A stretch of DNA of 64,000 nucleotides from Closterium sp. NIES-65 (Eukaryota; Streptophyta; Zygnematophyceae; Desmidiales; Closteriaceae), in the NCBI GenBank assembly GCA_948144175.1, contig CANXME010000309.1:930001-994000 (forward strand), read 5' to 3'. Under the pieces are notes generated by a model. It was not told the DNA's origin and ran no database searches. It was given only the letters and a program-made list of their open reading frames with translations. The translations under genes were made by a program, and so were the position numbers. Below, piece after piece: positions 2,929 through 52,800 of the stretch (position 1 is its first letter; each line of letters starts with the position of its first letter).

Positions 2929-5900
2929 TCAACACAGCTTAGTCTCTCCTCCCTTTTCCCTCGGCCTTGATTCTGTGTCTCCCAATACAACCTCCCGCAT
3001 CAGCAGTATCACTTCTTCCTGCCTCATCGCTTCCGATTCATTGATATTTTCAACGTTATCTTGGGTACCCTTTCCTATATTCACTCCTCCCTCCTTTACT
3101 TCCTCCTTTTTCTCGATCTTTGCTTTAGCTCCTTCCTTTATCTCTCCTCCTCCCTCCTCTCCTGCGGCGTCTCCTTCCACTTTCTCTTTCTTCGCCTCTG
3201 CTTCCTCCCCTTCCTCTTTCTCCCTTCCCTCTTTCTCTTCTGCTCTCTCCCCTCCCACTTTCTCCCCCTCCCCTTTCGCCCCCTCCTCTCTCGCAACCCA
3301 CTCTTTCTCCCCTTCCTTCAAGTCCCCTTTACCCCTAACCCCATCCATTGTATTTCTCTCCACAATATTGCAAACATCGACCACCATTTCCCTGTCAACA
3401 CGAGCCACCGTAACCCCTTCCTCCTCTGCAGAAACCTCAACTCCCCCATCGCCTCTCCTTTTCCCTCCCTTTCCTGCATCCCCTTTCTCACATTGCTCCC
3501 CTTCCCTTCCTTTCCCCTTATCCTCTCCAACACAGTCCGTTCCCTCCCTCTCCTGCTGCTGCAACCCTTCTTCTTTCCCTTCTCCTCTTTCCTCTCCTTC
3601 CTTTCCTCGCACCCCTCCTCCCCTCTCTCTCGTACCGTCCTCTGTCTCCCTTTTCTCTTCCTCCCATTCCCCCTCCTCCGCTCTCGCCTTCTGCTCCTCC
3701 TCCCCTTCTCCTCTCTCCCTTTTCTCCTCCTCCTCATGTTCCCTTGCCACTCCAGGAGCATCTGGATCCGATCTGGAAGAATCTAATCTGGGAGGATCTG
3801 ATCTACAAGGATCTGATATGGAAGAATCTAATCTGGGAAAATCTGCATCCAGCTTTTGCTCGATGCTCCCCTTTCCATCAGCCGATGCACCCTTATTTTT
3901 TCCCACCCCTAGGGCATCCAAACCAGCAGCTTCAAGTTCACTCTTGAGAGAGTCAGTTTTTGGCGGGTCTGGGTCTGTTTTGGGAGGGTCTGTTTCCAGA
4001 AAGCCTGTATTGGAAGGGTCTGTTTTGAGAGGGTCTGTTTTCGGGAAGTCTGTATTGGGAGGGTCTGTTTTGGGAGAGTTTCTTTCCAGACGGTCTGTTT
4101 TGAGAAGATCAGGGTCAGCTTGTACGTCTCGCCTCCCCTTCCCACCAGCCAACCCAACCGCACCCTTCTCCACCGCAACAAGATCCGCTCCAGACCCTTT
4201 TTCCGAAATCACATTTTCTTGAGATAAATTTTCTGTGTTCGGATTTCCAACAGTTTTACCTGCCGAGGTCTTACTTCTCGAGGTCTCATCTGCCAAGGTC
4301 TTATTTGCCAAGGTCTCATCTGCCATGGTCTCATCTGCCAAGGTCTTATCTGCCAAGGTCTTATCTGCCAAGGTCTTATCTGCCACGGTCTTATCTGCCA
4401 AGGTCTTATCTGTTGAGACCTTATCTTGCGAAGTCTTATCTGCCAAGGTATTATCTTGCAAGGTCTTATCAGTTGAAATCAGATCTCCAGAGGTCTTATG
4501 CCCAGAGGTTGTAACTGGGGAGGTCTTATCTGCTGAAGCGGGATCTCCAGAGGTCTTATTTGCTCCCATCTGATCCGCCTCAGATTCAGGCTTACCACAC
4601 CCTTCTGCAGGCCCAGCTTCTTCAGCTTCAGGTGCAGTTTCAGGTGCAATTCCAGGAGCAGTCTCAGGTGCAATTTCAGGTGCAGTTTCAGGTGCAGGTT
4701 CAGGTGCAGGTTCAGGTTCAGCCTTTCCTTCGGCTTCAGCTTCTGAGACCTTCGAAGTAGAAGGGAGCAGCTGTACCGGATCTTCTCTGGACAAACCAGC
4801 TTCCAGGTCAAGCGTACCCCCGGCTGTAGCTTCGGCTTTTACATCCAAAGGCTTTGGATTAAAAGGAAGCGACCGGGGCGCACCGGCTTTTGATGGATCA
4901 GCTTCCAGGTCAAGCTTACCACCACACCCTTCAGCAGAACCAGCTGCAGCTGCGTCATTAGCTTCTGTTTCCACTTTTGCTTCAGCTTCTGCTTTTGAAG
5001 GCTTCGAACTGAAAGGAAGCGATCGGGGCGGGTCTGCTCCGGACAAATTAGCTTCCAGGTCAAGCTTACCACCACACCTGTCTTCAGACCCAGCTGCAAC
5101 ACCCTCCACTTTTGCTTTGGCGCCTGCTTCTGAAAGCGAACTGAAAGGAAGCGACTGGGGCGGATCTGCTTTGGACAAACCAGCTTCCAGGTCAAGCTTA
5201 CCACCACACCTGTCTTCAGACCCAGCCGCAAGACCCTCAGCTTCAGCCGTGGCTTGATCTTTCACTCCAGCTTCTGCTTCTGCTTCTAAATCTGCTTCAG
5301 CTGCAGCTTTTGAAGATTCTAAACTGAAAGGAAGCGACTGGGGCGGGTATGCGCTGGCGCTGCGTGCGGCATCTTCACCACTAGCTTCTGGTTCGGCCAT
5401 AGATCCTGATAAACAGAGACCTGCTCCCATCTCCGACTTTTGAGGCGCCTCAAAGGTATGTTCTGGTTTTGCAAAGGACCCTGATAAGCAGAGGCCTGCG
5501 CCCAGGCCTGTCCCAGACCTAGGGTCGCCAGGTTCGGATACAGCCGAACCAGAGCCCAGCTCTGTTCCCGTCCTATCTGCTCTGGCAGGTTCGGTTGTGG
5601 AACAGTGCAAACCACTTGCTTGCGATCCCATCCGCAGATCTCGCTCCGAAGCAACCTCAACCGTCGGATCCTGCTCCAAGTCCAGCCCCTGCCGTCCAGA
5701 TCCTCTGCCTGCTCCATCGCCGATCTCAGCCGTTGGAACAGCCTCCAGATCAAACCCTGACCGACCCTCATCAGCCCGAGCCTCAGCAGCAGGTTCGGAC
5801 TCCAGGTCGAAATCCAAGCCTCCTCTACCCTTCTTTCCACACCTCTCCGATTCCCGATCATCTCTTTCTCCTCTCTCCCCTCTCCCGTAGCTCTCTAGTC

Positions 5901-7924: not shown

Positions 7925-7988
7925 TGAAAGGAAGGGCGGAAGGAGAGGAGGGGGACGGGGAGGGGGCGGAGGAGGGGGGGGTTGGGGC

Positions 7989-9780
7989 TTTTGAGACGTC
8001 TCGTGAGTATCTCTGCCGGCTTTTGAGACGTCTCGTGAGTATCTCTGCCGGCTTTTGAGACGTCTCGTGAGTATCTCTGCCGGCTTTTGAGACGTCTCGT
8101 GAGTATCTCTGCCGGCTTTTGAGACGTCTCGTGAGTATCTCTGCCGGCTTTTGAGACGTCTCGTGAGTATCTCTGCTGGCTTTTGAGACGTCTCGTGAGT
8201 ATCTCTGCCGGCTTTTGAGACGTCTCGTGAGTATCTCTGCCGGCTTTTGAGACGTCTCGTGAGTATCTCTGCCGGCTTTTGAGACGTCTCGTGAGTATCT
8301 CTGCCGGCTTTTGAGACGTCTCGTGAGTATCTCTGCCGGCTTTTGAGACGTCTCGTGAGTATCTCTGCCGGCTTTTGAGACGTCTCGTGAGTATCTCTGC
8401 CGGCTTTTGAGACGTCTCGTGAGTATCTCTGCCGGCTTTTGAGACGTCTCGTGAGTATCTCTGCCGGCTTTTGAGACGTCTCGTGAGTATCTCTGCCGGC
8501 TTTTGAGACGTCTCGTGAGTATCTCTGCCGGCTTTTGAGACGTCTCGTGAGTATCTCTGCCGGCTTTTGAGACGTCTCGTGAGTATCTCTGCCGGCTTTT
8601 GAGACGTCTCGTGAGTATCTCTGCCAGCTTTTGAGACGTCTCGTGAGTATCTCTGCCGGCTTTTGAAACGTCTCGTGAGTATCTCTGCCGGCTTTTGAGA
8701 CGTCTCGTGAGTATCTCTGCCGGCTTTTGAGACGTCTCGTGAGTATCTCTGCCAGCTTTTGAGACGTCTCGTGAGTATCTCTGCCGGCTTTTGAGACGTC
8801 TCGTGAGTATCTCTGCCGGCTTTTGAGACGTCTCGTGAGTATCTCTGCCGGCTTTTGAGACGTCTCGTGAGTATCTCTGCCGGCTTTTGAGTCGTCTCGT
8901 GAGTATCTCTGCCGGCTTTTGAGACGTCTCGTGAGTATCTCTGCCGGCTTTTGAGACGTCTCGTGAGTATCTCTGCCGGCTTTTGAGACGTCTCGTGAGT
9001 ATCTCTGCCGGCTTTTGAGACGTCTCGTGAGTATCTCTGCCGGCTTTTGAGACGTCTCGTGAGTATCTCTGCCGGCTTTTGAGACGTCTCGTGAGTATCT
9101 CTGCCGGCTTTTGAGACGTCTCGTGAGTATCTCTGCCGGCTTTTGAGACGTCTCGTGAGTATCTCTGCCGGCTTTTGAGACGTCTCGTGAGTATCTCTGC
9201 CGGCTTTTGAGACGTCTCGTGAGTATCTCTGCCGGCTTTTGAGACGTCTCGTGAGTATCTCTGCCGGCTTTTGAGACGTCTCGTGAGTATCTCTGCCGGC
9301 TTTTGAGACGTCTCGTGAGTATCTCTGCCGGCTTTTGAGACGTCTCGTGAGTATCTCTGCCGGCTTTTGAGACGTCTCGTGAGTATCTCTGCCGGCTTTT
9401 GAGACGTCTCGTGAGTATCTCTGCCGGCTTTTGAGACGTCTCGTGAGTATCTCTGCCGGCTTTTGAGACGTCTCGTGAGTATCTCTGCCGGCTTTTGAGA
9501 CGTCTCGTGAGTATCTCTGCCAGCTTTTGAGACGTCTCGTGAGTATCTCTGCCGGCTTTTGAGACGTCTCGTGAGTATCTCTGCCGGCTTTTGAGACGTC
9601 TCGTGAGTATCTCTGCCGGCTTTTGAGACATCTCGTGAGTATCTCTGCCAGCTTTTGAGACGTCTCGTGAGTATCTCTGCCGGCTTTTGAGACGTCTCGT
9701 GAGTATCTCTGCCGGCTTTTGAGACGTCTCGTGAGTATCTCTGCCGGCTTTTGAGACGTCTCGTGAGTATCTCTGCGCGC
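7989..9780. repeat. 32-bp tandem array, 56 copies, palindrome plus exon end
   Basis: Fifty-six units of TTTTGAGACGTCTCGTGAG + TATCTCTGCCGGC. The first TTTT starts at 7989 and the last at 9749, exactly 55 x 32 bp apart, so there is no net insertion or deletion. Only scattered single-base variants are seen (for example near 8176, 8628, 8667, 8889 and 9628). The left half is the GAGACGTCTC palindrome. The right half, on the minus strand, is GCCGGCAGAGATACTC, matching the end of the KQRQLLSQLQPA exon copy at about 9860-9897. All three minus-strand frames are free of stops through the array, giving spurious proteins of 660-845 aa (repeat RRLKSRQRYSRDVSKAGRDT...). Confidence 0.95.
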
Positions 9781-9784
9781 TGCC

Positions 9785-9802
9785 TTTTGAGGCGCCTCAA
9801 AA
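9785..9802. repeat. Palindrome, GCGC core
   Basis: TTTTGAGGCGCCTCAAAA, a perfect 18-bp palindrome directly after the last unit of the 32-bp array. The exon-end string GTGAGTATCTCTGC occurs on both sides of it. Confidence 0.95.
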
Positions 9803-10182
9803 TGCACCTCCCTACACGCGGATTTCATACGGAGAGAATTATTACGTCTCGTGAGTATCTCTGCCGGTTGTACCTGAGCGCTGCCGCTGCTTCTGTGGAC
9901 ATAGGAAACGGAGGAGGAAGGGTGGGGTGTGGGGGGGAGTGGGGAAGAGGGAAACAGGGGCAAAGGGAGCAGGGCAGAAGCAATGACACAACACCTATGT
10001 GTGATAATACTGCCGGCTGTAGCTGAGATAGGAGCTGCCGCTGCTTCTGTGGACATAGAAGACGGAGGAAAGGGGGTGGGGAAGGGGGGAAAGGGGGGAG
10101 AGCGTTGGGGAGAGGAAAACAGGGGCACACACACACGCGCACCTATGTAAATGATGTGACTCACGCGCACTCTAGAGAATTC
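9803..10182 (-). repeat. Two further echoes of the KQRQLL exon start
   Basis: Minus-strand acceptors (cctatgtccacag, ctatgtccacag) precede AAGCAGCGGCAG at about 9897 and 10046. The 10046 copy reads KQRQLLSQLQPAVLSHIG; the 9897 copy diverges after KQRQ. The intron parts upstream of each (purine-rich on plus, 9905-9985 and 10060-10135) are also similar, so intron plus exon start was duplicated as a block. Confidence 0.65.
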
Positions 10183-10184: not shown

Positions 10185-10185
10185 A

Positions 10186-10485
10186 GAAGCAAGCACACAC
10201 ACACAGTACACACACACAGTACACACACACAGCACACACACACAGTACACACACACACACAGTACACACACACACCTCATGTAAACGATGTGACTCTAGA
10301 GATTTTTCAGAAGCAAGCACACACACACAAGTTTTGAGTCGACTCAAAACTCGACTTACAGAAAACACACTCACACACAGCAGTACACACACACACACAG
10401 CAGTACACACACACACACAGCAGTACACACACACACACAGCAGTACACACACACACACAGCAGTACACACACCTCAAGTAAACGA
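10186..10485. repeat. (CA)n and CAGTACACAC repeats
   Basis: Imperfect CA microsatellite with a CAGTACACACACACACA superrepeat. It is interrupted at 10332-10349 by the perfect palindrome TTTTGAGTCGACTCAAAA (TCGA core). No gene. Confidence 0.9.
10332..10349. repeat. Palindrome, TCGA core
   Basis: TTTTGAGTCGACTCAAAA, perfect over 18 bp and over 20 bp with its outer G and C. CA-rich repeats lie on both sides. Confidence 0.95.
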
Positions 10486-10759: not shown

Positions 10760-13700
10760 CTCATGTAACTCATGCAGCTCGCGAATCTGCCTGCCGCACT
10801 CCTCCTCCTGAGACTGCATGGCGGCAAAGACCCGTCGAGCCACTTCCTCCCCCAAGCACTTAACCATGTTGCTTCTCAAGTCCTTTACCGCTCTCTCCTC
10901 TTCAACTGCCCTCTCCTCCTCCACTGCTCCCTCCTTTTTCACTACCCTCTCCCCATCCGCTGCTCTCCTTTTCTCCTCCACTGCTCGGCTCTCCCCGCCT
11001 GTCCTCCAGTCTTCCACCTCCATTTCCTCCTTAACTCTTCTCCCCTCCTTACCTATCCTCTCCTCCTCTCTCCCTTTCACCTCCGTTCTCCCTGTCTCCT
11101 CCGCTCTCCCCTTCTCTTCATTCTCTACTCTCCCCTTCCCAGCTGTCCTCCGCTCCTCCTCGTACAACACACCACCGCCAAAACCAACAGAAGCAGCCTC
11201 ACCAGTTTCGGCGCAACCACCTGTAGCACCACCTGTAGCACCGGCTGTAGCATCTTCTGTTGCAGCACCTCTACCAGCCTCGCCGGCACCACCACCCGTA
11301 GCAGCCCCGTCTGTAGCATCACCAGCCCCATCTGTAGCATCACCAGCCCCATCTGTAGCATCACCAGCCCCATCTGTAGCATCACCAGCCCCATCTGTAG
11401 CATCACCAGCCCCATCTGTAGCATCACCAGCACCATCTGTAGCACCACCAGTCGACCCAACGCCTCCCACGCTGCCGACACCACTGCCACTTAACCCAGC
11501 TTCGTCCCTAAGCACCACCCGATCACTGCTCCTCATTGCACCTGCCTCTTCCAGGTTAAGATTCACTTGCCGCCACCACTTAGTCTCCACGCCTGCATTA
11601 TCAGCGCCAGCAGCTGTAGCATTGACGCCTGTAGCGTTCTGAGACGTCTCAAAACTCGACCACTTAGTCTCCACGCCTGCATTACCAGAGCCAGCAGCTG
11701 AAGCATTTACGCCTGTAGCACCAGCGGCTGTAGCGGCACCAGCTGTAGCGGCACCGGCTGGAGCACCGGCTGCTGCTGCCACTGATGCTGCTGTTTTCCG
11801 TGCTGGAGATACTGCTGCCGCTGCTGCTGCTGCTGCTGCTGGTGCTGCTTCAGGTGCACCTACCGAACCCCCTGCTGCCAATTCCAACTCCTTACTCCTC
11901 CCCACCGAAGCCCACCTATTCAGGAAGAAATTCGCCGGAACCTGCACCCCCTGCCCTTGCCCCTCCCCCATCCCTCCCACACCTCCCACTCCTCTCGTCC
12001 TCCTCCCCTCATCCCCCACACCCCTCACCTCCTCTGTCACCTCCTCTCTCCTTCCCCTCTTTGCCATACCCTCACGTCCCTTCCATCCCCCTTCTTCCTC
12101 ATCCACCCCCTCCTCCTTCCGTCTCTTCTCCCCACCCTCCGTCAGTCTAGACCCCCCCTGCTTTCCAAACCACTCTCCCTGCTCAGCCACTTTCCGACCC
12201 ATGCTTCCCTCCCCCTGCTTTCCAAACCCCTCTCCACCTCGCCCTCCTGATATATCCCCACCAGCACCACCAGCCTTTGAAGCAGCTTCAAACGACCTAT
12301 TCTTCTCAGGCGCCTCAAAAACCGTTCCAAACATGTGATTCTCCTTCTCCCCCTTCTGCACGGACCCACCTCCCTCTCTCCCTCCTGCACCCATCTCCCC
12401 ACCTCCAATCCCCAGCCCTAATCCTCCCCCTTTCCCAACACCTGCTCCCATTCCTGCTCCAGCTTCCTCCAATCCCCCTCTCCCCGCGCCTGACCCCGCG
12501 CTTCCCCCTCCCCCTCCCCCTCCCCCTCCCCCTGCGCCTACCCCTGCGCCTACCTCCCCGCCTCTCCCCCCTACCCCTGCTCCCACCCCCCCCAAAACCC
12601 CAGCAGCGGCTAGCCTAGCCGCTTCCAGCTGCCGTGCTGCCTCCTGCGGTCCCAGCCTCCCCTCTAGCTGCAGCCTTAAAGCCAAACCCGCAGCTTTCGA
12701 CTCCTGCGCCGCTTTTCGCGCCGACTCAAGAATCAGCGACAAATCCGTTCCTCTGGGAGCCTCAAAAGGCGCCAAATCCGTTCCTCTGGGCTCAGAAAAC
12801 ACGTTTTGGCTTTGCTGTGGCGCCTCAGAAAACGCATCCAGCTGCCGTGCTGCCTCCTGTGGTCCCAGACGCCCCTCTAACTGCAGCCTAAAAGCCAGGT
12901 GTGCTGCTTTCGCCTCTTGCGATGCTCTTGCTTCTTGAGCCGCTTTCAAACCTTGTAACTGTTCCTCCATGCTCGCCGTTTTCACGTCTCTTGGACCCAA
13001 ATCATCCGCCTTCACGTCTCTGCGAGCCGAATCCGCCGCTTTCGAATCTCTTGCTGCCAAGTCTCTCAAATGAGACTCCGCCTTGAGACGGTTCAAAAGG
13101 AGAGAATCGGCTAAAGAGGCAGGGGAGAATGGGGAGGCTGGGGAAGGAAATGGGGAAAGCGCCTGTCCTGGGGAGGGGGAGGAGGAAGGGTTGGGGGGTT
13201 GTTGCGCTGTGGTTGCTGCTGCTGCCGCCGCTGCTGCCGCCGCTGCTGCAGCAGCTGCTGCTGCTGTTGGGTCTAGGTCTGCCAAATTTCCAAAGTGCGC
13301 TGCTGCTGTTGCTGCTGCAGTTGCCGCTGCAGTTGCCGCTGCTGTTGCCGCTGCTGCTGTTGCTGCCGATGCTGCTGCTGCCGCGTTTAGGTGATTCAGA
13401 TGCGCTGCTGCGGCGGCTGCTGCCGCTGCAGCAGCTGCTGGGGAGTTAGCATAGGTGATACCTGCTGCCCCTGGTGCTCCTGCCACTCCTGCTGCCCCTG
13501 CTCCTCCTCCTGCTCCTCCTATTCCTCCTGCCCCTGCTCCTCCCATTCCTCCCGCCGCTCCTGCCGCTGCAGCCTCGCGCATGTGAGCTTCGGCAAGGAT
13601 TCGCGAGGAGAGGGACGCGATGAGCGATGCCGAGGCTCCACTCACAGGCTCGGACACGGTTCGGGAGCTACTGCGGGAAGGAACGGGACCGCAGAAAAAT

Positions 13701-16213
13701 ATTTGGGAGGGGGCAGAAAGGAAGGAAGAGGGGGAAGGGGAGGGAGGGCGGGGAGGGGGAATCGGGATGGAGGGGAAGACAGGATATATGTTCAGAGAAG
13801 TCTAGTTTTGAGGCGCCTCAAAACAGGATATATGTTGAGAGAATGATGCGTGAGATTACAGCATGAATGGGTGTGTGTGGTGCTGGTGCCATCAAAAGCA
13901 AGGGTGAAGGTGCTGAATCTGACGCAAGGCTAGGGAACAGTGCGGTACAGTACAGTACGGTACGGTACGGTAGTAACAACTTACTGCATGAACGGGTGTG
14001 TGTGATGCACTGGGAAAGCCCTTTCTCTGCCCACCTTCTCCTCCTCCCTCCTGCCCGCCCCTAGCCCAAACATTGCGCCCCTTCCGCCCTCTCCCGCCCC
14101 CAGTCGCTCCCCACTAGCATCATTCCCCCCACTACCCCGCCTCTGGTCAAATCCCCCCAAAAAACCCTTTTTCCCGCTTTCCTCCTCAAGATTCCTTCCG
14201 CCGCCCATCCCCCCTCCCCCTCCGCCTCCCCCTCCGCCCCCGCCTCCGCCTCTGCCTCCCCCAAAGGGTGACCCCTCAGTTCCCCCATCCCCCCCATAGC
14301 TGCTGTGGCGCAAACCAGAAGGCCCCAGCCCCGCGCCAGTGGCAGAAAGAGGCACGGCGCTGGGCAGATGCGCGGAAAGCGAGCTTCCCCCCGGGCTACC
14401 GCCTCCCCCAGAGCTTATAGCCGCGCCCCCAGCGCCCATTCCGCTTCCGACGGCCCCGCCAGCGCTCATCTCCGCGCTTCCCCCGCCTGCGCGCGCGCCT
14501 GATGCGAGATTAGACAGCCCGCGGGAAGAAGCCGCCCCAGCAAGACCCCCCCCTGCGGCCGATCCTAACGTTCCCCCGAACATTCCCCCTGGCGTTCCCC
14601 CTGACGCTCCCCCCGGCGCTGCGCCTAGCGCTGCGTCCAGGGCTGTTCCGCGGGACCCTGGGGTGCGCGAGCTGCTGTCGACCTCCCACGAGTTGTACCC
14701 CGCGCCGATCGCCACACTCCCGCCCCCCGGCCCCCCTGCGCCGCCAAACGCGCCAACGTCGAGATTCGATCCCCCGCCTGCTGATTCCACCTGCCGTAAG
14801 TCGTTCTACGGAGGGGAGGGCCGGGACCGCGCCCAGAAAATCAAAAAAAGGCAGCCCGCAGGAAATAAAAATGAAACGAAAAACACGTAAGCAAGCAAAC
14901 GAAAGAAGAAAAAAAGAAAAAAAAATATAGCATCCTTTGGAAAAAGGAAAGAAAAGATGTTCCATGGCTCCAACCGTCACTCCACTCACCAGGATCTGAA
15001 CCTGTCGGGTTCAAGTTTTTAAGAGCCTCAGAGCCGGACTATTTTATGCTAAACCAACGGCTTTCAGCATCACTCCGCTCACCAGGATCTGAAGCCGCCG
15101 GATGGCGAACTCGCTAAGCGACTGCATCGCTCCGCCAGTGCCGGCCCTTCCCGTACTCGCTGCGTGCGCAGCTGCCGCGGCCGCCGCCACCGCCGCCCCC
15201 CTCAACCCCCCTCCAAAGATACTCCCGAACCCCGCGCCTCCTTCGCTCGCGGTCCCTCCCCGCGTCCCCGCTGCGCCGGCCCCCAGCCCTCCGCCCAACC
15301 CCCCGCCAAGCCCTAATCCACCCGCACCAAACAAGCCACCGCCCAAACCTCCGCCCAAGCCTCCGCCGAGCCTGTGGAATCCTTCTCTACCCAAAGCTGC
15401 GCCTGCCGAAGCTGCCATCACCACGTCGAGCGGAACCCGCTCGTGTCCGCCCGGACTGCTCCCCGTCGTTCCGCTCAGGCCCCCAAGCGCTGCGCCCAGC
15501 CCGCCCAAGCTTCCGCCCGCCCCGCTCCCTCCGCCCACCACAGATCGATCTCCCCCCACGCGCATTCGATCCGCGAAATCGCTGGATAACGATCGCGACG
15601 CGGCAAGTAGCGATAGCTGCCTTCTAGCAGCGATACTTAATAGCGGATCGGACGCGGCGGCCGCTGCCGCCGCCGCCGCCGCAGCTGTCGCGAGGTTGTC
15701 AGAAAGCGGCCCCAGAGGGGCGGAGAGCGACGCGAGAGAGGAGGAAGCGACGGGGGGAGGTAAGGGGAAGAGTCCGCCGAGGCCTAGGGCTTGGAGGGCC
15801 GCGGAAGAGGTTAGGAGGCTTGAGGGGTCCTGTTGCTGAAGCTGTCGCAGCTGCTGCTGTTGCTGCTGCTGCTGTTGTTGCTGTTGCTGCTGCGACCGCT
15901 CTAGTTCCGCGTTGCGCAATTCCTGCAGGCGGAGCTTTTCCAGGTGCGCAATGCCGTGCCCGCGCTGCATCACCTTCACCTTCTTCTCCGCGCCCGCCCC
16001 CGCGGAACTCCCCCCGGCTCCCCCCGCTCCGCCGGCTCCACTGCGCCCGGCGGGACCGCTGCTCTCCGCGCCCCACGCGCCCCCGCCGCGCTCCCGCTTT
16101 GTTCCGCTCATCGATCCGCGGCCCTCTCTTTCCCCACCGTTGCGCCGACTGGAGGCCTCGCCTCCCCCGCCCGCGCGGGATCCTTCCCGCGCGGCTTTGC
16201 TGGTTACCTCCAT
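10760..16213 (-). CDS. SPOROCYTELESS/SPEAR-motif low-complexity protein (at least 1,616 aa)
   Basis: Three minus-strand exons join in phase: 16213-15083, 14790-13985 and 13670-10760, all with GT-AG sites. Exon 1 starts at an ATG and encodes, at residues 84-98, RGHGIAHLEKLRLQE after a KKVKVMQ basic stretch. This closely resembles the conserved motif of plant SPOROCYTELESS/NOZZLE and SPEAR proteins (known as EAR-type co-repressor adaptors). Poly-Gln follows, then Gly/Ala/Ser-rich sequence. Exon 3 holds Ala runs, LKAESHLRDLAARDSKAAD-type helices, duplicated modules and a C-terminal coiled coil (RQIRELHELHE). The frame is open at the exon 3 donor, so more exons follow, perhaps KQRQLLSQLQ (7924, 9897 or 10046). 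A nuclear regulatory role is inferred from the motif alone. Family SPEAR proteins are usually only a few hundred residues, so the size is odd. Several in-frame palindromes lie in exon 3. Confidence 0.55.
11300..11445. repeat. 21-bp coding minisatellite, seven copies
   Basis: CATCTGTAGCATCACCAGCCC repeats seven times (one base longer form not counted), coding DGAGDAT on the minus strand inside exon 3 of the SPEAR-motif gene. It keeps the frame. Confidence 0.85.
11637..11654. repeat. Palindrome, ACGT core, in coding sequence
   Basis: TTCTGAGACGTCTCAAAA in frame in the SPEAR-motif gene (S-F-E-T-S-Q-N). It separates two copies of a block of about 65 bp (11573-11636 and 11660-11725) that encode VETKW and ATGVNA(T/S)AAG. 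Confidence 0.9.
12276..12325. repeat. Two decayed in-frame palindromes
   Basis: TTTGAAGCAGCTTCAAA (12276-12292, odd centre) and CAGGCGCCTCAAAA (12307-12320). Coded peptides are SFEAASK and VFEAPEK, a recognisable scar of the palindrome family. Another pair near 12755-12825 codes FEAPRG and FSEAPQQ between two RGTDL copies. Confidence 0.6.
13806..13823. repeat. Palindrome, GCGC core, in an intron
   Basis: TTTTGAGGCGCCTCAAAA. The flanks ACAGGATATATGTTCAGAGA (from 13778) and ACAGGATATATGTTGAGAGA (from 13821) are two copies of one sequence, so the palindrome sits at a duplication junction in the intron between 13985 and 13670. Confidence 0.95.
13861..13895 (-). repeat. Exon-end echo of SPEAR-motif exon 2
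   Basis: The end of exon 2 (CACACACCCGTTCATGCA then GTAAGT, 13985-14010) recurs at 13861-13890 as CACACACCCATTCATGCTGT. A donor-side duplicate. Confidence 0.65.
14984..15022 (-). repeat. Exon-end echo of SPEAR-motif exon 1
   Basis: Minus-strand GGTTCAGATCCTG followed by GTGAGTGGAGTGACGG repeats the real exon end at 15083 (GGCTTCAGATCCTG then GTGAGCGGAGTGATGC). Confidence 0.7.
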
Positions 16214-18403: not shown

Positions 18404-21400
18404 TCAAGAGGAGAGCAAGTGAGGCAAGACAGGCACAAGACCCAGCTGGGTGCAAAAGCGCTGATGGTCACAAGGCGCGAGTGCCTTGGTGAACACATCA
18501 GCAGTGTTGGCCTCAGAGGCCACGTACGCAAGTCGCAACTGACCACGCTGCTGCAGCTCACGAGCAAGGAAGTAGCGGAGAGCAATGTGCTTCGTTCTGT
18601 GCTCCAAGCGCTGCTCTCGACACAAGGCCAGCATGGCCTTGTTGTCTACGTACAGCACTGGAGGAGAACGAGGCGGCTCTCCAAGGTCAGTCAGCAGGTA
18701 GGTGAGCCAGCGAAGCTCCTGTGCAGCCATGGCCCCGGCGTAGATCTCAGCCTCACAACTGGAGCCGAGAACCGAAGACGAGCGAGTAGACCGCCACGAG
18801 ACAGAGCCGGAACCAAGGCTGAAGGTGTAACCCTGTGACGACCGCTGCGTAGCCTGGTCGTCAGCCCAAGAAGCGTCCGCGTGGCCGGTAAGGACCACTG
18901 GACTCCGCCCTCCAAGCACTAGCCCCATGCCCGACGTACTGCACAGGTAGCGCAATACCCTCTTCGCTGCAGCCATGTGCTCCGGTCGGTGTCTCCCAGG
19001 AGCAACATAGCGTGCAAGAATGCTAAGAGGGTATGCAAGGTTAGGTCGTGTGCAGGTCATCAGGTACATGAGGCAGCCAACAAGCTCTGCATACGGACCA
19101 CTCGACTCTACGGACTCATCCGAAGGCAGAGCTGAGAGTGAGTGGCGAGTAGGCAGAGGAGTGGCCTGAGGCGAGGAGTACGTGAAGCCGAAGCGCTGAA
19201 GGACCTGCTGCACCATGTGTGACTGAGTCAAGGTAATGGTGCGGCGTGCTCTGTCCCGAGTGATCTGCAAGCCAAGGTAGCTGCGCAGTTCACCCAGGTC
19301 TGTGCACGTGTGTCTCTTCAGCAGCTCGGACTTCACGTAGGCGAGTCCAGCAGTGTCCGCTGTGGCAAAGACCAAGTCGTCGACGTACACGAGGATGTAG
19401 AACGGCGGCAGGGAAGTGTCGGTGCGAAGAAACAGCGACGGGTCAGCAGTAGAAGGAGCAAACCCAAGAGCCGCAAGCGTAGTCCTCAGTGTGTCGTGCC
19501 ACTCACGCGGTGCCTGGCGGAGACCGTAGACTGGCCGTCGGAGGCTCCACTGGGTGCCAGGAGGGAAAGTCCCAGTGAAGCCAGGTGGACGGCGAAGCCA
19601 GATCTCCTCGTGCAGGCTACCCTGTAAGAACGCAGTGCTGAAGTCGAGAGAGTGAAGCTCGTAGTCGCGCTGAGCGGCGATGTGCAGCAGCACCCGAAGA
19701 GTAGTCATCTTCGGGGTGGGAGAGAAGGTCTGAAAGTAGTCAACTCCCTGCCGCTGACTGAAGCCACGAGCAACGTACCGTGCCTTGAAGACAGGTGGAG
19801 AGCCCGGCGGCCGCTTCACCCTGAAGATCCACATGCCACTGACGATGTTCGCCCCAGGAGGGGGAACCGCGTCAACGTAGGTGCCTGTGGACTTCCAGGA
19901 AGCCATCTCTGCATCCATAGCTGCCTGCCACTGAGAGGAGTAGGGACCCTCTACGGCCTCCGCGTAAGAACGCGGAGTCGGGATGTCTAGTGCATCCGGG
20001 TCTCCCTCAGGGGCAAGCAGTACAGACGCGAGATGAGGTGAAGCAGCCGCTAGACACTGTAACTCCTCCTGTCTGTCCTCTAGGACGTCCGTGCCAAGAG
20101 CACACTCACCCCCGACGGACGGAGGACAGACAGACGCAGACTCAGCAACAAGACTAGCAGTGTAGTCGAGACGACAGCGAGCAGCAAAGTCAACGAGCTC
20201 AGCGACTAGAGCAGACGCAGCAGTGGACTCAAAAGAGGGGTCAGTGACGACAGTAGCAAGCAGACGCGTGACAGTAGGACTCGCAGCGCGAAGAGAGTCC
20301 GACTCAGGGTCGGCAAGCGCAGGAAGTGAGGACTCAGGAGGAGAAGGCAAAGGGGCACGCAGAGGAGCAGTGGACGGACGCAGAGACATCCAGTGCGTGC
20401 CAGGGACAGGAGGAGGACGCTGACGCGAACTGCGACCACTAGCGCGAGCAGCACGAACAGGCGACGCGGGACGAGACGCAGGCTCACGACGCTCAGCAAG
20501 ACCTCCAGTAGGACCAGAGTAAGGAGAGGGAGCAGGCAGTGGAGAGGAAGGCTCCAGTAGGGACTGCGACTGGACAGGTGGTGGACCCTCTACTGGAGGA
20601 GAAAGACCAAGAACCTGCTGCAGGAGCGGAACGAAGTACGGCCGAGGCCGCGCGGCAGCTCCAGACTCAGCAGGGACAGCACCAGCACCCTCAGCTACAG
20701 CACCAGCGCCACCCACACCTCCAGCGGCAGGACCAACAGCAGCAGGCTCAGCACGAACGCCCCCAGCAGCTCCAGCTCCAGGAGGACCCGCAGGTCCAGC
20801 AGCTCCGGGACCGGCAGCACCCGCACCCTCGACGGTCGAAGAAGCTCCAGCTCCAGCTCCAGCAGCACCTCCAGACTCAGCAGCACGCCTCCAGCGGCGA
20901 GCGAACCACTCGCGCAGCTCCTGTGGAGAGAGGGGCTCCCGGCAAGACGCAGCAGCAGGAGAAACCCCAGGCTCAGCAGCTCCAGACGCAGCACCCCCAG
21001 GCTCAGCAGCTCCCAGCTCAGCACCCCCAGGCTCAGCAGCTCCCGACCCAGCACCCCCAGACCCAGCACCTCCAGGCACAGCACCCCCCGGCTCAGCACC
21101 CCCAGGCTCCGCACCCTCCGCAGTAGCACCCTCAGGCCCAGCACCCCCACCAGTAGCACCCCCAGGCTCAGCACCCCCGTGCACAGCACCCCCAGAGTCA
21201 GCACCCCCAGGCTCAGCACCCGCAGCAGCACCAGAGTCACCAGTAACCTCGACCGGGTCAACGGCGTCTACCTGGGACACACCTGAGGGGGCAGGAACCT
21301 GAGGGGGGAGGGGGTCTACCGGGGGGGGAACCGGCACAAGGAAGTCCGGGGGAGGGGGGAGGGAAGGAGTGCGGTAGGGGAAGAGACGGTAGAAGGGGAC

Positions 21401-25397: not shown

Positions 25398-25526
25398 TGT
25401 GAAATGAGTAAGCAGGAATGAGAATGACTAAGGAAAGATTGGGTACAAATACAACCCTAGAAACCCTGTACCCCATATGTGCTACCCCACTATAGCCTAC
25501 AGCAACTATGTCATATAAATCTGACA
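25398..25526 (-). repeat. Copia 5' LTR (129 bp)
   Basis: Identical to 18069-18197. It is followed on the minus strand by TGGTATAGAGCGGG, the primer-binding site. Confidence 0.95.
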
Positions 25527-31800: not shown

Positions 31801-34800
31801 GTGGGGTTCTTGTGTGGGGTTCTTGTGTGGGGTTCTTGTGTGGGGGCCTTGTGGGGTTCTTGTGTGGGGTTCTTGTGTGGGGTTCTTGTGTGGGGTTCTT
31901 GTGTGGGGTTCTTGTGTGGGGTTCTTGTGTGGGGTTCTTGTGTGGGGTTCTTGTGTGGGGTTCTTGTGTGGGGTTCTTGTGTGGGGTTCTTGTGTGGGGT
32001 TCTTGTGTGGGGTTCTTGTGTGGGGTTCTTGTGTGGGGGCCTTGTGGGGTTCTTGTGTGGGGTTCTTGTGTGGGGTTCTTGTGTGGGGTTCTTGTGTGGG
32101 GTTCTTGTGTGGGGGCCTTGTGGGGTTCTTGTGTGGGGTTCTTGTGTGGGGTTCTTGTGTGGGGTTCTTGTGTGGGGTTCTTGTGTGGGGTTCTTGTGTG
32201 GGGTTCTTGTGTGGGGTTCTTGTGTGGGGTTCTTGTGTGGGGTTCTTGTGTGGGGTTCTTGTGTGGGGTTCTTGTGTGGGGTTCTTGTGTGGGGTTCTTG
32301 TGTGGGGTTCTTGTGTGGGGTTCTTGTGTGGGGTTCTTGTGTGGGGTTCTTGTGTGGGGTTCTTGTGTGGGGTTCTTGTGTGGGGGCCTTGTGGGGCTCT
32401 TGTGTGGGGTTCTTGTGTGGGGTTCTTGTGTGGGGTTCTTGTGTGGGGTTCTTGTGTGGGGGCCTTGTGGGGTTCTTGTGTGGGGTTCTTGTGTGGGGGC
32501 CTTGTGGGGTTCTTGTGTGGGGTTCTTGTGTGGGGTCCTTGTGGGGTTCTTGTGTGGGGTTCTTGTGTGGGGTTCTTGTGTGGGGTTCTTGTGTGGGGTT
32601 CTTGTGTGGGGTTCTTGTGTGGGGTTCTTGTGTGGGGTTCTTGTGTGGGGTTCTTGTGTGGGGTTCTTGTGTGGGGTTCTTGTGTGGGGTTCTTGTGAGC
32701 GTTCTCAGAAGCCCCTGCATGTGTGCATGCGGCCATGGCAGTGTATGAGAGGGGCGAGGCTCCGGATATCCGTGGTGATGACGTGCGAGAGAGCATGCTG
32801 GCTGGCGACACACAGGTGATTTTGTTTTGTGCTTTGTTTGTTTGTTTTTTTTGTTTTTGTTTTTTTTTTTGTTTTTTTTCCGATTGGGGTTACTGGTTGA
32901 TTGCTACGTGCTTGATTTGTTATTTGTGCGCTACTAAGCAAGTCGAATGGGTGTATTGAAGCAGTGGATATCCATGGGGAGGACGTGAGAGGACATGCCA
33001 TGCCATGCCATGCCATGGCGTGCCATGCTATTTCATTTCGTGCCATGTCTTGCCATTCGTTTCCATGTCTTGCCATTCGTTTCCATGTCTTGCCATTCGT
33101 TTCCATGTCTTGCTATGTCGTGCCGCGCCGCCATGCCATGCCATGCAGGTGGTCTACCTCGCACTCTCATCCCTCTATGGGGACGTTCATGCTGCCAAGC
33201 ACTGATTCCATGCCGCTCCTTTCCATGCCATGCCATGCCATGGCATGCCATTCCTGCTCATCCCATGCCATGCAGGTGGTCTACCTCGCACTCTCATCGC
33301 TCTATGGGGACGTTGATGCTGCCAAACTGTGAGTGGGAGAGATTGGTGGAAGAGATGAGTGAGAGAGATTACTGTACAGGCAACTCAAAAGTCACCTCAT
33401 TTCCCTATGGGGACGTTGATGCTGCCAAACTGTCGTACTGCAGAGTAGAAACGTTGAATCGGTATATTAAATGTCTCATAAGAGACGAGAGGACTTGCAG
33501 GTAATCAAAGCCACAAAGCTTTCAAAACAATGTTGTTGCGATGTGGATTTTCTTCGTTTGTGTTCCCCATAACGGTTACGTTGGTTCTGTCCTTGATCGT
33601 ATGTGCATTATGGGGTGTGGATGATGGTAACAATATATACCCCCATGGCAGGCAACTGGGCAAACCATGGCTGGATCGGCCTTACACTGTTAAACAGCAA
33701 AACTCCATCCCGAGCATGTACCCGGACTGGATGATGGTGGGTAGAGGGTGATGGTGTGTACATTAATTTTGAGGCGTCTCATAAGCGGCCTTACACCGTT
33801 AAACAGCAAAACTCCATCTCGAGCATTTATCCAGACTGGATGATGGTATGTGCATGATGGCGGGTGGATGATGGTGTGTGCATGATGGTGGGTGGATGAT
33901 GGTGTGTGCATGATGGTGGGTGGATGATGGTGTGTGCATGATGGTGGGTGGATGATGGTGTGTGCATTACTGCATGATGGTATGTGTTACAAATAGACTA
34001 CCAACATCACTGCATGATGGTATGTGTTACATTGAGGCTGTCAACATCACTGCATGATGGTATGTGCATCACTGCATGATGGAAGGTGCATCACTGCATG
34101 ATGAGAGATCGGTTAATCCTGATGCACCCCGGAAGTTGTATTTCCGCATCCTCTCTCTCTCCTCCCCCCCCAACCCTCTGCCCTTCCCCTCCCCGCCTCT
34201 CTCCCCCCACCCCCCGCCTCTCTCCCCCCACCCCGCCTCTCCGCCGCCTCTCTCCCCCCACCAGGCTCGGTGGTGGCGAGCTCAAGCCGCCCGTTTCTTG
34301 CTCCGCTGGCCGTCTGCTCATCTCTGCCACATCATCAACCACGTCCGCCACGTCAGCTACGGCCGCATCATGGCCGATCGTGTGGCAGCAGTCGCTGCCC
34401 AGCAGGCGAGCATCATCGAATCGCTGAACACCACCTCGGGTGCCAGCTCAGCAGCCACGTCAGATGCCAGCTCAGCGGCCACGTCAGCTGCCAGCTCAAC
34501 AGCAGAAATAGGAGATCCGCTGGACGATCTGCTGCTCCTGGTTGCAGCCAAGGCACGGGAAACAGGGAGGGAGATCCTTGCAGCGAATGGCAGCGCGACA
34601 CGTGTACAGTCGTTGCAGTCGCATATCTGGCCAATGAAAGGGGTTACTGGATGCTCAGGCATGGAAAGTGGGCAGACGAGGGAGGGGGGAAGTGCAGACA
34701 CAGGGGTGGGGGGGGAGGTGCAGATGGTGCGGCCAGTGGTGAGCGTGCATGTGCGGCTGAGTGACAAAGGGTCTGAGATGGAGCTTCACCCGCTGCCGGC

Positions 34801-35657: not shown

Positions 35658-35659
35658 GC

Positions 35660-37573: not shown

Positions 37574-37641
<68 letters not shown>

Positions 37642-40600
37642 CCAAGAAGCTAGTTCAGCACTTTAGGCACCTGTTGGCTACAGTTGTCCCCTGCAGATGG
37701 TATATGCAGCTGTCAAATTCACATGCCACTGTCACACCCGTACCTCCAGGTAGTGCCCGTCGCTGCTGTTGCAGAGAGGCAGGTGCATGAACGCCACGGC
37801 CCACTTGATAGTGTCACAAGAAGTGGTTACTCACTCCATGTAACTGCCACATGCACCTGGCACACCCCGTACCTCCAAGTAGTGCCCGTCGCTGCTGTTG
37901 CAGAGAGGCACATGCATGAACGCCACAACCCACGCACTTGACAGTGGCACAGGTACCAGTTGGGTAGCCGACCTATCCAGCTGTGACAAGCACACACAGC
38001 AGCTACAGCCTCACCTCCAGGTAGTGCCCGTCGTTGCTGTTGCAGAGAGGCATATGCATGAACGCCACAACCCACGCACTTGACAGTGGCACAGGTACCG
38101 GTTGGGTAGCCGACCTATCCAGCTGTGACAAGCACACACAGCAGCTACAGCCTCACCTCCAGGTAGTGCCCGTCGTTGCTGTTGTAGAGAGGCACGTGCA
38201 TGAACGCCACCACCCACGGGGTCTTCTTGCGGTCGATGCGGCACAGGTCGTCCCGCAGCCAGTACCACTGTGCCACGTGGCATGGGGTTGACACACAAGA
38301 TGCAAAAGAGGAAAATTAGTACGAATCGAATCGAACGACCTTAGCTTCTTGGTTATCCTATCCAACACACCCCAGACCTACTAAGTGAGAGTACACATCC
38401 ACCCCACCCCATCCCACCACACCCCACCCCACCCCACCACACCACACCACACCACGCCACACCACGCCACACTGAACCATGCCACACCGCACCTCACCAC
38501 ACCACACCCCATCCTTCCTGGTGCATGTAGATCTGGAAGGGCGAGTAGGAGTTGATAGCGATCATGTGCACTGGGCCGATGTCCAAGGGAATAGAAGAGT
38601 GGAACCACCACACCACACAGCACTGCACCACACCACAGTGCACCCAACTACTCACAACACCATATGCCTGTCCCTTGCATCTAACTGTGCTACCTGGTGC
38701 GTGTAGATAACGAAAGGCGAGTAGGAGACGATTGCGAACACATGCACAGTTCCGATGTCCAGAGAGTAGAAAAGATTAGTTACAACACCACACAGAACCA
38801 CACCACACACCACCACACCACACCACACCACACCACACCACAGCACAGCACAGCACACCTCACCACACCACACCACACATTACCTGGTGCGTGTAGATAA
38901 CGAAGGGCGAGTAGAAGTTGACAGCAATCACATGCACGGGGCCGATGTCCAATGAGTAGAAGAGAGGCTAGTTACCACACCACGCCACACTGCACCGCAC
39001 TGAATCACACCACACCATACCACACCACACCACATGACAGACACCACCCCACATTACCTGGTGCGTGTAGATAACGAAGGGCGAGTAGGAGTTGATGGCG
39101 ATCACATGCACGGGGCCGATGTCCATGGAGTAGAAGAGCGGTGCCTTGGCCGGGTACGCATGGTGGTGATGATGATGGTGATGGTGGTTGGGAGTAAGTC
39201 CGGCCTGATACCAAACGGGTGAGGCAAGGCGAGAGAGAGGGATGGAGGAGAGAGGGATGGAGGAGAGAGGGATGGAGGAGAGAGGGATGGAGGAGAGAGG
39301 GACGCATAAGAGAAAAGTGGCTCTCGGAAGCGTTTTGAGTCGACTCAAAACACACCTAGAAGAGGAGCCGATGTCCATGGAGTAAAAGAGACACGCCTTG
39401 GATGGTTACGCATGGTGGTGGTGCTGATCAAAAGGAATTTGAAGGAGATAGGGACACACAACAAAGAGTGGAAAGGGGTATGCATGGTGGTGGTGATGAT
39501 GGTGGTGGTAATGAGAAAGATTGATCCTGCCTGATACCACGAGGGGGTGAAGCAAGAAATGAAAGGGCGAGGAAATACATAAGAGGGTGGAATGTCCAAG
39601 GAGTAGATGAGACGCATTTTAGCGAGCTGCAACGACAGCTCTCAGCGCTATGAGAAGCCACAACCCACAGCCCTCACCTTGGACAGCAGGCTCGCCAGCA
39701 GCGGGTGGTGGTGGTGCAGCAGAGGGGGGATTCGTGCAGAATACACTTTGAATGGCCGCAGCTCGCCCCACCTCGGCACGAGCTCGATCTCATGGTTCCC
39801 TGGGACGTGCGCCACAGGCTGGCAGCAGCAGGCGAGGAGAGTACGTACAGATGGGACACCTTGAATATCGTTTTTGTTTTTGTTATTGTATTTGTATTTG
39901 TATATATATACATATATGTATATGCATGTATTAGCATAAGCTACATGTGGCAGCGGCAGGCGAGGATAGCAGTGCTGGAGATTCTTTGCGTCACAAGAAC
40001 ATCTTGGTGCATTTTCCATAAAGGAACATTTCTTGTGAAACATAGCAGTGCTGGAAGCTCTTTATGAAAAAGAATGGCACAAGATGCACCAAGAATCGTG
40101 CCGCATTTGAAAATTCTCAAAATCGTGCTCGCAGAGGAACTTACGATACCTGGGCGATTTGGGCGAAGAACTTCAGAAGAACTTACGATACCTGGGCGAT
40201 ATGGGCGAATACTTTCTCGGACAAGCGGCCATAGGAGTCCCAGCGCACTCCGCCCAGCCCACAAATCTTGCTCCTCCCAAGAGGGATCCTCTCCTCAGTG
40301 CGGGTGACAGGAAAAACACACAAGATGCACCAAGGCTCGCAGAGGAACTTACGATATGGGCGAATACTTTCTCGGACAAGCGGCCGTAGGAGTCCCAGCG
40401 CACCCCTCCCAGCCCACATATCTTGCTCGTCCTTTCCCTCTCGCTCTCGCTCTTTCCGCCAGCCTCAGGAGAATCAGCAGTCAGGAGAGATTGAGCAGAG
40501 TCCATAGGTGTGCAGTGCGGTGGGCCGTACTGGTCAGCGTAGCTAAGATCCCCCGCAAACAGCACCAGGCTGGGGCTGCCGGCTTTCACATTGTCGAATG

Positions 40601-47908: not shown

Positions 47909-47941
<33 letters not shown>

Positions 47942-49745: not shown

Positions 49746-49776
<31 letters not shown>

Positions 49777-49791
49777 CACACAAAACGGAGC

Positions 49792-49822
<31 letters not shown>

Positions 49823-52800
49823 CAAAACAGAGCAAGGAGGGATGAGCAAGAGGCAAACACAAACGTGTTCGCGTTCGCTCCTGCACGAACACCGCCGTTC
49901 GGCGGACCGAACACTGTTCGGTTCGCCGAACAGCTTTAGCAAAAAAGGGTGTTCGCCGTTCGCCTGTGAAGGCGAACACCTTGTTGATGCAGGGGAACAC
50001 GAACGTGTTCGTGGCAAACACGTTCGTGTTTGCCCCGGGACTACATTCACTAAAGTCACACGTTTGTGGATTGTGCATTGTTGATATTTGTTAGGTGGCT
50101 GTAAGGTCCAAATAGAGTAAAAGTTCAAATCGTTGCACATTCCCTCCCCCCACCCCCCAAGCCAGTCCCGCCCTGCTTCATCCATGCTAATGCCAGCGTG
50201 TGACGGCGAAATGCTAGATCTGCACTTAAGCAACGGCGAAATGCTAGATCTGCACTTCAGCAACGGCGAAATGCTAGATCTGCACTTCAGCAACGGCGAA
50301 ATGCTAGATATGCACTTAAGCAACGGCGAAATGCTCGATCTGCACTTAAGCAACGGCGAAATGCTCGATCTGCACTTAAGCAACGGCGAAATGCTCGATC
50401 TACACTTAAGCAACGGCGAAATGCTCGATCTGCACTTAAGCAACGGCGAAATGCTCGATCTGCACTTAAGGAATGGCGAAATGCCAAATCTGAGCCCAAA
50501 CACCAAGGCCCGCGACCTAAAAATTGGTCGCGGGCCTATTCGTCGACGAACACATTGGTGTTTGTCGAAGGCCCGTGTCGAACACGAACACGTTCGTGTT
50601 CGACGCGCCTCGGCCAGCTGAGCCGGGCGAACAGCGAACGTGTTCGGGCGAACACCGAACACGTTCGCCCCGAACAATTTAGCGAACCGAAAAGGAGTTC
50701 GTTATATTGCTCAGCTCATCCCTAAGGATGAGCATTTAACCACCGGCACAGCCTTAGCATATGACGTGAAGCTGTGGCATGACATAGCCCCCACAAGCCA
50801 CAACCTCACACCAGAATCACCACCGCATGCCCCACCCGGGTTAACTCCACTCCAGATCCACCTCAGACACTACCCACCACACACACACCGTACCCTGCAT
50901 ACCCAACCAGCACTGCTAGTACTAACGCGTTCTACCCAGCCAGTACAACCAACCAGGCTTGAGGTACGGCTGGGTACGACTCTCTCTCTCACCTCGCCCT
51001 CACCTCATGTGCCACTCGGGAGATGGGACCCCACCCCAATCACCCTGTGCCTCACCCAGGTTAGGGTGGGGAAGGCTCACCTCATGCAACACCCAGGGGG
51101 GGGGGCCTCGCAATCACCTCAGGCGCCATCCACCACACGGTGCCGCGCATGCCTGAGTCTGCCCACATGCCATAGTCACCTCATGCCAGAATCACCCCAT
51201 GACCCCAATCAAGGGAAGAAGAGGGGCGGAGGTGAGGGCTCAAAACTCACCTCAGGCGCCATCCACCACACAGTGCCGCGCATGCCCGACATGTCTGATG
51301 GCGTCTCCACCTGCCCATGTGCCATGCCGTGTATGGGATGTGTGATGCGTGATGTGTGATGCGTGATGCGTGATGCGTGATGTGTGATGGGTGATGTGCG
51401 ATGGGTGATGTGTGATGCGTGATTTGTGATGCGTGATGTGGTGTGGGATGGGATTCAGGATGTGGGATGTGTGATACATTATGTGCAATGATAGATGAGC
51501 ATGAAGACAAAACGATGAGAAGGGAAATGAGAGAAAATGATGAAAAGCCATGGAGAGGGGGGTTGTGAGGTGAGGGGGAAGCGGATAGGCAAAGAGGAGT
51601 GAGAGGGTGGGGAGAAACGGAGAGACGGAATGAGAGGTGACTCACGTATTTCGCTACACCAAAGTGCAGGGTGTTTTTGAGAATTCTGCAGGGTGTTTTT
51701 GAGAATTCTCAAAAACACCCTGAAACGGAGAGACGGAATGAGAGGTGACTCACATATTTCGCTACACCAAAGTCAGCGAGCTTGGCGTTTCCCTTGGTAT
51801 CCAGCAGAATGTTTTTCCCCTTCACGTCTCTGTCGGTTGCAAGTAAGTAATTATGACACAAAAGGGAAGAAAGAACAGTACAGAAAGGCCTCAGAGTCAT
51901 TATAACTGCGCCTTTTGAGGCGCCTCAAAAGTCAGAATGTTCTTCCCCTTCACATCCCTGTCGGTTGCAAGTCAGTAATAATGACACAAAAGGGAAGAAA
52001 GAACAGTGCAGAAAGGCCTCAGAGTCATTATAACTGCGCCACTCATTTGAACCCAAGCACCCACCAACCTGACGCACGCCCACCCACCCACCGGTGAACG
52101 ATGTTGTGGTCATCCACCCAGCCCCCCAGTTCCCCGCCCCCCCACCCACTCACCCACCCACCCACCCACCTCAACCGCACACCACCCTACTAACCCACCC
52201 ACCGGTGCACGATGTTGTGGTCATGCAGGTACGCCAGCCCCTCCAGCAACGCCTCCCAATAGCAGCCCTACCTTCCGCCCACATCAACCGCACACCACCC
52301 TACTAACCCACCCACCGGTGCACGATGTTGTGGTCATGCAGGTACGCCAGCCCCTCGAGCAGCTGGCGAGTGTACTTGGCGATCTGGTGCTCCTCCAAGG
52401 GGCCAAAGTCCTCCAGGTGCCTTTTGAGTCGACTCGAAAGCCAGCCCTTAAGCCTCAACCCTATACTGGAACCACTTTCAGGTAACGGCTGAGCCAAGCA
52501 CCCACTTTCAAGCCCCTAAATCTCAACCCTCTCTTCTCCTCAACCACCCACCGATGAACGATGTTGTTGTCATGCAGGTAAGCCAGCCCCTCCAGCAGCT
52601 GGCGAGTGTACTTGGCGATCTGATGCTCCTCCAAGGGGCCAAAGTCCTCCAGGTACTTGGAGAGAGATGTGTCCATGTACTCGAGGAAGAGGTACATGCA
52701 CTTGTCGTCCTGGAGGGAAGAGGAGAAGAAGGAAGGAGAGGGAAGGAAGTGCAAGGCGGGGAGGGGCACAGGAATGTGGTTCAAGCGGTGCTCCTCCAAG

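Follow-up and report, generated by a model that had tools for sequence, protein, structure and literature searches.

Penelope-like retroelements are recognized by a reverse transcriptase (RT) accompanied by a GIY-YIG domain (absent from the endonuclease-less members), by head-to-tail partial copies with repeated ends and by a hammerhead ribozyme in the repeated end, and their mode of insertion is poorly understood. Cut-and-paste transposases leave a target duplication of fixed, short length, and in Stowaway-type miniature inverted-repeat transposable elements (MITEs) this duplication is a fixed TA. Here we describe a dispersed palindrome, TTTTGAG-N4-CTCAAAA, in the genome of the alga Closterium sp. 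NIES-65, noticed in a 64,000-nucleotide stretch of contig CANXME010000309.1 (assembly GCA_948144175.1, positions 930,001 to 994,000; “the window” below means this whole stretch). The Closterium system resembles Penelope-like retroelements in its RT-type frames, in one RT relative that joins RVT_1 with GIY-YIG, in head-to-tail partial copies with repeated ends and possibly in one hammerhead-type core within the element, but differs in having ~30,000 micro-copies of 18 to ~54 bp that carry the 5′ tip twice, head to head, across a self-complementary joint. We know of no description of head-to-head 5′-tip micro-copies in Penelope-like retroelements. With Stowaway-type MITEs the palindromes share a palindromic, dispersed character and sub-threshold Rfam matches to the MIR1120 hairpin family, which we take to be linked to MITEs; unlike in MITEs, the duplications are long and variable.

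Other parallels come from published accounts. Telomerase-made interstitial telomeric repeats that include a piece of telomerase RNA (TERC-ITS; 41 loci in 22 species) are described as reverse-transcribed insertions at double-strand breaks, with 3′-end priming proposed for some loci (PMC8537989); insertion by reverse transcription at breaks is also what we propose for Closterium, where, in contrast, the insert is a palindrome with long target duplications. The GC clusters of yeast mitochondria (GC42) are short mobile palindromes for which RNA-mediated copying has been suggested (PMC4478555), and the Closterium palindromes are likewise short and probably mobile. Small tandem duplications at breaks with 3′ overhangs duplicate the overhang, as is proposed for Closterium, although the accessible text of that study mentions no fixed palindromic junction insert (PMC8355091). 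Closterium itself belongs to a group near the land plants, and its strains are reported to differ greatly in genome size (PMC10407611); the word “palindrom” is absent from the main text of that genome paper, and a literature search, with most subscription papers outside its reach, returned no description of such palindromic micro-copies.

We regard it as evenly balanced whether the isolated palindromes are insertions that arose at staggered breaks when a Penelope-like RT extended each of the two 3′ ends with a copy of the 5′ tip of its RNA, the resulting tails then being joined via the core. Somewhat less likely is the wider proposal that Closterium has a telomerase-like retroelement polymerase which closes staggered breaks by adding identical 5′-terminal cDNA to both 3′ ends, that self-complementary 4-base RNA tips act as sticky ends, and that the element thereby gives rise to perfect palindromes in the tens of thousands, every one accompanied by a new tandem duplication, and seeds the satellites of the genome.

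Abundance and symmetry of the palindrome

The pattern TTTTGAG-N4-CTCAAAA matched 30,327 sites (array copies included) in the Closterium assembly (874 Mb; 2,400 contigs), against 4 for the same pattern read backwards. A 314-kb sample held 106 sites that reduce to 45 loci, and 104 other permutations of the arm gave zero matches in 314 kb of genome. Among five 10-kb stretches picked irrespective of the motif, only one had sites, all of them in a single 77-bp satellite. The window contains eight exact sites (GCGC, n = 5; TCGA, n = 2; AATT, n = 1), each with a self-complementary core, and within a 264-kb sample (the window plus 20 stretches, 18 of which were selected around hits) 57 of 61 cores were palindromic, being TCGA, GCGC, ACGT or AATT; the remaining four (TTGA, TCAA, AATC and ACAT) each lie one base from a palindromic core. 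Symmetry frequently extends beyond 18 bp with outer bases that differ by site (the symmetric stretch measures 24 bp at both 29779 and 31047, and 34 bp at 51689), and at least one extra symmetric pair was found outside the 18 bp in 36 of 41 loci (window plus L005-L029 without L027, arrays collapsed, four cores only). A sequence-only reading of the window had claimed a dispersed 18-bp palindrome with an always self-complementary core, a claim that would fail if motif counts matched random expectation or if non-palindromic cores were as common as palindromic ones. The palindrome is real and neither outcome was observed, but several of the positions listed for it were not confirmed: those at 5439, 29691, 29920, 30002, 36832, 40106, 52421, 6812 and 11637 are imperfect or shorter than 18 bp, and where 56 palindromes had been counted (7989-9780) there is an array of 56 units of 32 bp (7986-9776) without any 18-bp palindrome, 53 of its units carrying TTTTGAGACGTCTC, which is one arm, the core and CTC.

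Several other accounts of the motif were tried. A chance origin was rejected, with zero sites in 100 Markov simulations of the window. A terminator or restriction-site reading was likewise rejected: among the matches listed for the same motif in viral contigs, the core was palindromic in 2 of 120, and the arms of the other 118 enclose non-palindromic loops, unlike those of Closterium. Among the 118 matches listed in a scan of prokaryotes for the half-motif, 12 had a palindromic core, 5 a core of the four-core type and 2 a following CTC, all near chance. The window had no Rfam match at gathering score, and five loci gave only sub-threshold hairpin-type and sRNA matches. None of the seven peptides that the palindrome would encode was present among the 120 listed copia proteins, and separate hairpin folding of the two halves, considered at first, failed across sites. 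Satellites of 58 and 77 bp at L023:4865-8113 and L027:1-3580 have units that contain a TCGA-class or ACGT-class palindrome, and a distinct quasi-palindrome (GGTTGCCTTTGACTCGAGTCAAAGGCCACC; L023:1627-1656, second copy at 1766) possibly represents another class.

Target duplications, matched arms and junctions

Flanks of isolated, unmasked single copies were aligned with the palindrome as anchor and compared with random positions outside tandem arrays. A local direct repeat (score of ≥9) flanked 28 of 34 copies but only 40 of 600 random positions, and at stricter scores of 12, 15 and 20 the counts were 26, 23 and 21 of 34 copies against 28, 24 and 22 of 600. These counts make it likely that the isolated palindrome is a small insertion and that its target duplication is long and variable in length. 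Within a set of 40 ACGT-class loci (L030-L069, in which L054 and L065 are one locus in a segmental copy), duplications were present at 28, with aligned lengths of 22-144 bp. Repeats with 100% identity (46-77 bp at L045, L053 and L069; 60 bp at L010:3299) point to recent events, and a paralogous stretch at approximately L010:4040-4128, similar in its right flank, contains a single copy of the L010:3299 repeat and no palindrome. Flank comparison also located the palindromes of the window at tandem-duplication junctions. A Helitron, for which no target duplication is expected, does not fit the duplications at 28 of 34 isolated sites.

The ACGT core is the centre of a longer palindrome, CACGTG-N12-TTTTGAG-ACGT plus its complement, the half of which occurs at 1,169 places in the genome (545 + 624; control, 0). 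In full copies (e.g., L031, L037, L048 and L049), CACGTG closes the outer ends of both arms as terminal inverted repeats. The N12 segment is diverse, with 38 distinct variants in 45 copies read (position 6 is A in all, position 7 is G in 36) and an agreement between distinct variants of 5.7 of 12 positions. The two arms of one copy, however, were identical at 191 of 216 N12 positions (18 rows with a recognizable right outer end, representing 16 loci, as L048 and L049 each appear once per direction), compared with a mean of 112.9 and a maximum of 148 in 10,000 shuffled arm pairings; 17 rows matched at ≥9 of 12 positions. As N12 is equal within a copy and unequal between copies, it is likely that one short template made both arms: a palindromic master needs paired changes for each variant, whereas a single-stranded template used twice does not. 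The matched arms also agree with the earlier suggestion that the palindrome itself, not one sequence, recurs and is remade symmetric. A similar leaning toward A at position 6 and G at position 7 is seen in the TCGA class (0.54 and 0.51 of 41 arms). L079 provides a full TCGA half (CACGTG-TGGTGAGGTGAC-TTTTGAG-TCGA), and at L049, read by eye, a complete ACGT palindrome with a repeat of ∼16 bp is nested inside a TCGA palindrome.

Because completeness of the left half was the selection criterion for the 40 ACGT loci, their right ends alone are free of bias; in our own reading, most right arms either approach full length or measure 4-11 bases. On the left, the duplication stops precisely at CACGTG in 16 of 28 loci, giving, in loci preselected in this way, the variable duplication with one constant end that characterizes SINE-like (short interspersed nuclear element) non-LTR retroposons. 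In 8 of these 16 exact junctions the host shares 2-6 further bases (∼1 expected by chance, by our own estimate), and at L068 the host carries CACGTG at the junction itself. Halves followed by a base other than A were found at 160 places, array copies included, and 12 were fetched, chosen among 100 listed of the 160. In eight of the 12 the core differs from ACGT by one base, and in one it is TCGA; the others show a small repeat at the core (L081), a shortened core (L078) or a host repeat between the halves (L075). The ∼55 bases read beyond each of the 12 contain either another half or a brief interruption, and no long unique interior. Since the fetched halves are mostly core variants, truncation just before the core, leaving an arm that ends directly ahead of it, looks rare.

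The reverse-transcriptase element and a proposed origin of the palindromes

In the ACGT class, the half-palindrome stands at the head of the terminal repeat of an RT element that is Penelope-like and repeated in tandem. Together with the insertion-like behavior of copies between long target duplications, this speaks against the earlier view that no mobile element explains the motif. Bases 1-245 of L056 run up to the palindrome. They are present again at both ends of a 3.4-3.7 kb unit, and by themselves 3.4-3.7 kb from full 451-bp matches on contigs C73, C95, C2081, C2188 and C1122; head-to-tail spacing is ∼3.4-3.7 kb at C95, C2081 and C73, as in the partial tandem copies of a Penelope-like retroelement. 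One 3.6-kb copy (L320; C73:326980-330680, RT sense on the minus strand) is ordered as palindrome (core at 60), terminal repeat, open frames, RT and next palindrome (core at 3682), and its terminal repeats are identical at 227 of 248 columns as far as compared. Its RT frame contains the motifs GRPI, GTAMGT, YIDD and FLDL, and its start has the same palindromic joint, with the element itself forming one arm. Queried with this RT, the genome gave 121 scored matches, seven of them at 96-100% identity with frames of 330-710 residues free of stops. Others among the matches, from more distant RT elements, lie in head-to-tail arrays with periods of ∼6-9 kb (C614, C714, C919, C969 and C2347) that are possibly subtelomeric. 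A second element, at C32, has an RT 64% identical with stops in frame, and the L038 palindrome stands 412 bp from this RT with N12 TATGAAGATTTA, unlike the C73 and C95 elements (N12 AAAGAAGGAGTG); the AAAGAAGGAGTG variant recurs at L036 and L055, in micro-inserts that have target duplications.

There were 39 RT relatives at E values up to 1e-6, and the five that were scanned all contain RVT_1, one of them together with GIY-YIG; GIY-YIG was not found in five scanned segments of L320. A hammerhead-type core (CTGATGA-A-GGCTC-GCAA-GAGCC-GAAA) lies at sense position 436 of L320. The strict hammerhead pattern occurred once in 337 kb against 0 in 1.93 Mb of control, the loose pattern was about as frequent as in the control (4 cores in 337 kb; 21 in 1.93 Mb), and Rfam reported no hammerhead match on L320, with two sub-threshold matches.

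If the element is taken to start at the core, the half-palindrome equals the complement of its ∼29 initial bases; cDNA running off such a 5′ end would terminate in ACGT, and two such ends at one break could pair. The duplications suggest that the process would begin with a break, or a pair of nicks, that yields 3′ overhangs of tens of bases. Each 3′ end may then pair over a few bases with the 5′-terminal ∼30 nt of the element RNA, in keeping with the overlaps seen at junctions; in the ACGT class this tip would read 5′-ACGTCTCAAAA-N12-CACGTG. Synthesis would run off the RNA 5′ end to leave the tail CACGTG-N12-TTTTGAG-ACGT, and two tails would pair via ACGT, TCGA, GCGC or AATT and be filled in, giving the repeat-palindrome-repeat order that is observed. 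The unit of repeat plus palindrome could finally expand into a satellite, a probable path to the arrays that are present. Two-ended run-off with pairing through the core would account for the self-complementarity of all four cores, the agreement between arms, the variable outer ends with short overlaps, the rarity of truncation before the core and the target duplication. If this is true, one genome is marked at ∼30,000 sites, array copies among them, and the junctions of these sites record where priming started, where synthesis stopped and how ends were joined, and many short tandem duplications and the satellites of 32-77 bp seen here gain a concrete origin.

Several points weigh against two-ended copying. 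The RNA 5′ end, the priming at both ends and the joining step are all parts of the scheme that we infer. The retroelement link holds for the ACGT class only: CACGTG (≥5 of 6 bases) was found at offset 18 in 1 of 61 TCGA arms, 1 of 38 GCGC arms and 0 of 9 AATT arms against 9 of 67 ACGT arms (a further nine ACGT arms have it at offset 21 and are probably units of the window array), and shared architecture ties the TCGA, GCGC and AATT classes to the RT weakly. A 59-bp AATT-class composite of the form A-A-A′ stands at 20 places, some evidently mutual segmental copies, and suggests copying of a ready-made unit, not de novo joining. Duplications were not found at 12 of the 40 ACGT loci and 6 of the 34 sampled sites, the arms of L055 match at only 7 of 12 N12 positions, and in a few inserts (L014:3287, L022:4456 and L021:5749) the arms differ beside TTTT. 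The RT of L320 scores 18.5 bits for RVT_1, under the cut-off of 29.6, and no solved structure matches it. The assignment to Penelope-like elements is a putative one, drawn from motifs, one RT relative with GIY-YIG and tandem partial copies.

The AATT composite also fits a different account, in which a ready-made hairpin RNA, a self-complementary transcript of 54 nt, is copied once by target-primed reverse transcription and truncated at one end, like a tiny SINE. The combination of one full and one short arm that is common among the 40 ACGT loci is as this account expects, but truncation just before the core looks rare and the arms stay matched across the N12 variants of 16 loci, so that paired changes would be needed in each master; we consider a hairpin RNA rather unlikely. 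The junction overlaps of a few bases could reflect end joining that captures short palindromic DNA at breaks, the RT element merely bearing the same end sequence, and breaks with complementary 3′ overhangs do give tandem duplications (PMC8355091). Capture leaves the limit to four cores, the variant-matched arms and the ∼30,000 copies unexplained, however, and appears improbable.

Inverted-repeat structure and dispersed copies would suit a non-autonomous DNA transposon (a MITE or foldback element) reduced to fused terminal repeats, yet the duplications at 28 of the 40 loci are long and variable (22-144 bp) instead of short and fixed, and none of the 12 fetched halves leads into a long unique interior in the ∼55 bases read; such an origin is very improbable. 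Hardly any credence is given to the reverse order, in which pre-existing palindromes predisposed the surrounding DNA to tandem duplication. Palindromes are unstable DNA, as that order of events would need, but at window sites with clear flanks the palindrome stands between the two repeats, and the paralogous stretch near L010:4040-4128 has a single repeat and no palindrome.

Inserts and neighboring features of the window

In the window, the GCGC-class insert TTTTGAGGCGCCTCAAAAGT (51913-51932, an exact match) stands between the two copies of a 108-bp target duplication (51805-51912 and 51933-52040, 102/108 identical), and the GCGC-class insert GACTTTTGAGGCGCCTCAAAAGT (31047-31069) between those of a 47-bp duplication (31000-31046 and 31070-31116, 46/47 identical). 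The AATT-class perfect palindrome of 34 bp (51689-51722) has duplication copies at 51614-51669 and 51722-51776 (54/56 identical), and the 59-bp stretch that contains it (51664-51722) is found elsewhere in the genome with different flanks. Two further GCGC-class inserts, AGTTTTGAGGCGCCTCAAAACTAGA (29780-29804) and GTCTAGTTTTGAGGCGCCTCAAAA (13800-13823), have shorter flanking repeats (29758-29779 and 29805-29826, 20/22 identical; 13780-13799 and 13824-13843, 19/20 identical). Degenerate inserts comprise one of the ACGT class (11636-11658; flanks 11575-11635 and 11659-11719, 57/61 identical), one of the AATT class (29907-29945; flanks 29845-29906 and 29946-30008, 60/63 identical) and one at 33764-33785 (flanks 33677-33763 and 33786-33883, 79/98 identical); a degenerate TCGA-class palindrome of 32 bp, AGGTGACTTTTTAATCGACTCAAAAGTCACCT, lies at 29690-29721, and a GCGC-class insert at 5430-5460 is older (flanks 5386-5429 and 5461-5504, 35/44 identical). 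Clean flanking duplications are lacking at the GCGC-class palindrome of 9785-9820, which has a right arm of nearly full length (CTCAAAA-TGCACCTCCCTA-CACGCG), and at two TCGA-class palindromes of 22 bp (10330-10351) and 20 bp (39332-39351).

A 13-bp array of TGTGGGGTTCTTG (31579-32697, ∼87 copies) terminates in a degenerate GAGCGTTCTCAGAA. A kinase-like exon segment at 52300-53500 contains, by eye, several tandem repeats, one of which bears a degenerate TCGA palindrome at 52422, and the minus strand of 52554-52712 matches MAP3K and GCN2 kinases. A DNA transposase lies in pieces at 25511-27210, with DDE_1 and Tc5-type helix-turn-helix domains in two frames. The copia polyprotein on the minus strand at 18407-24334 is, in the part searched, 99% identical to proteins of Closterium sp. 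NIES-64 and ≤96% identical to those of NIES-65.

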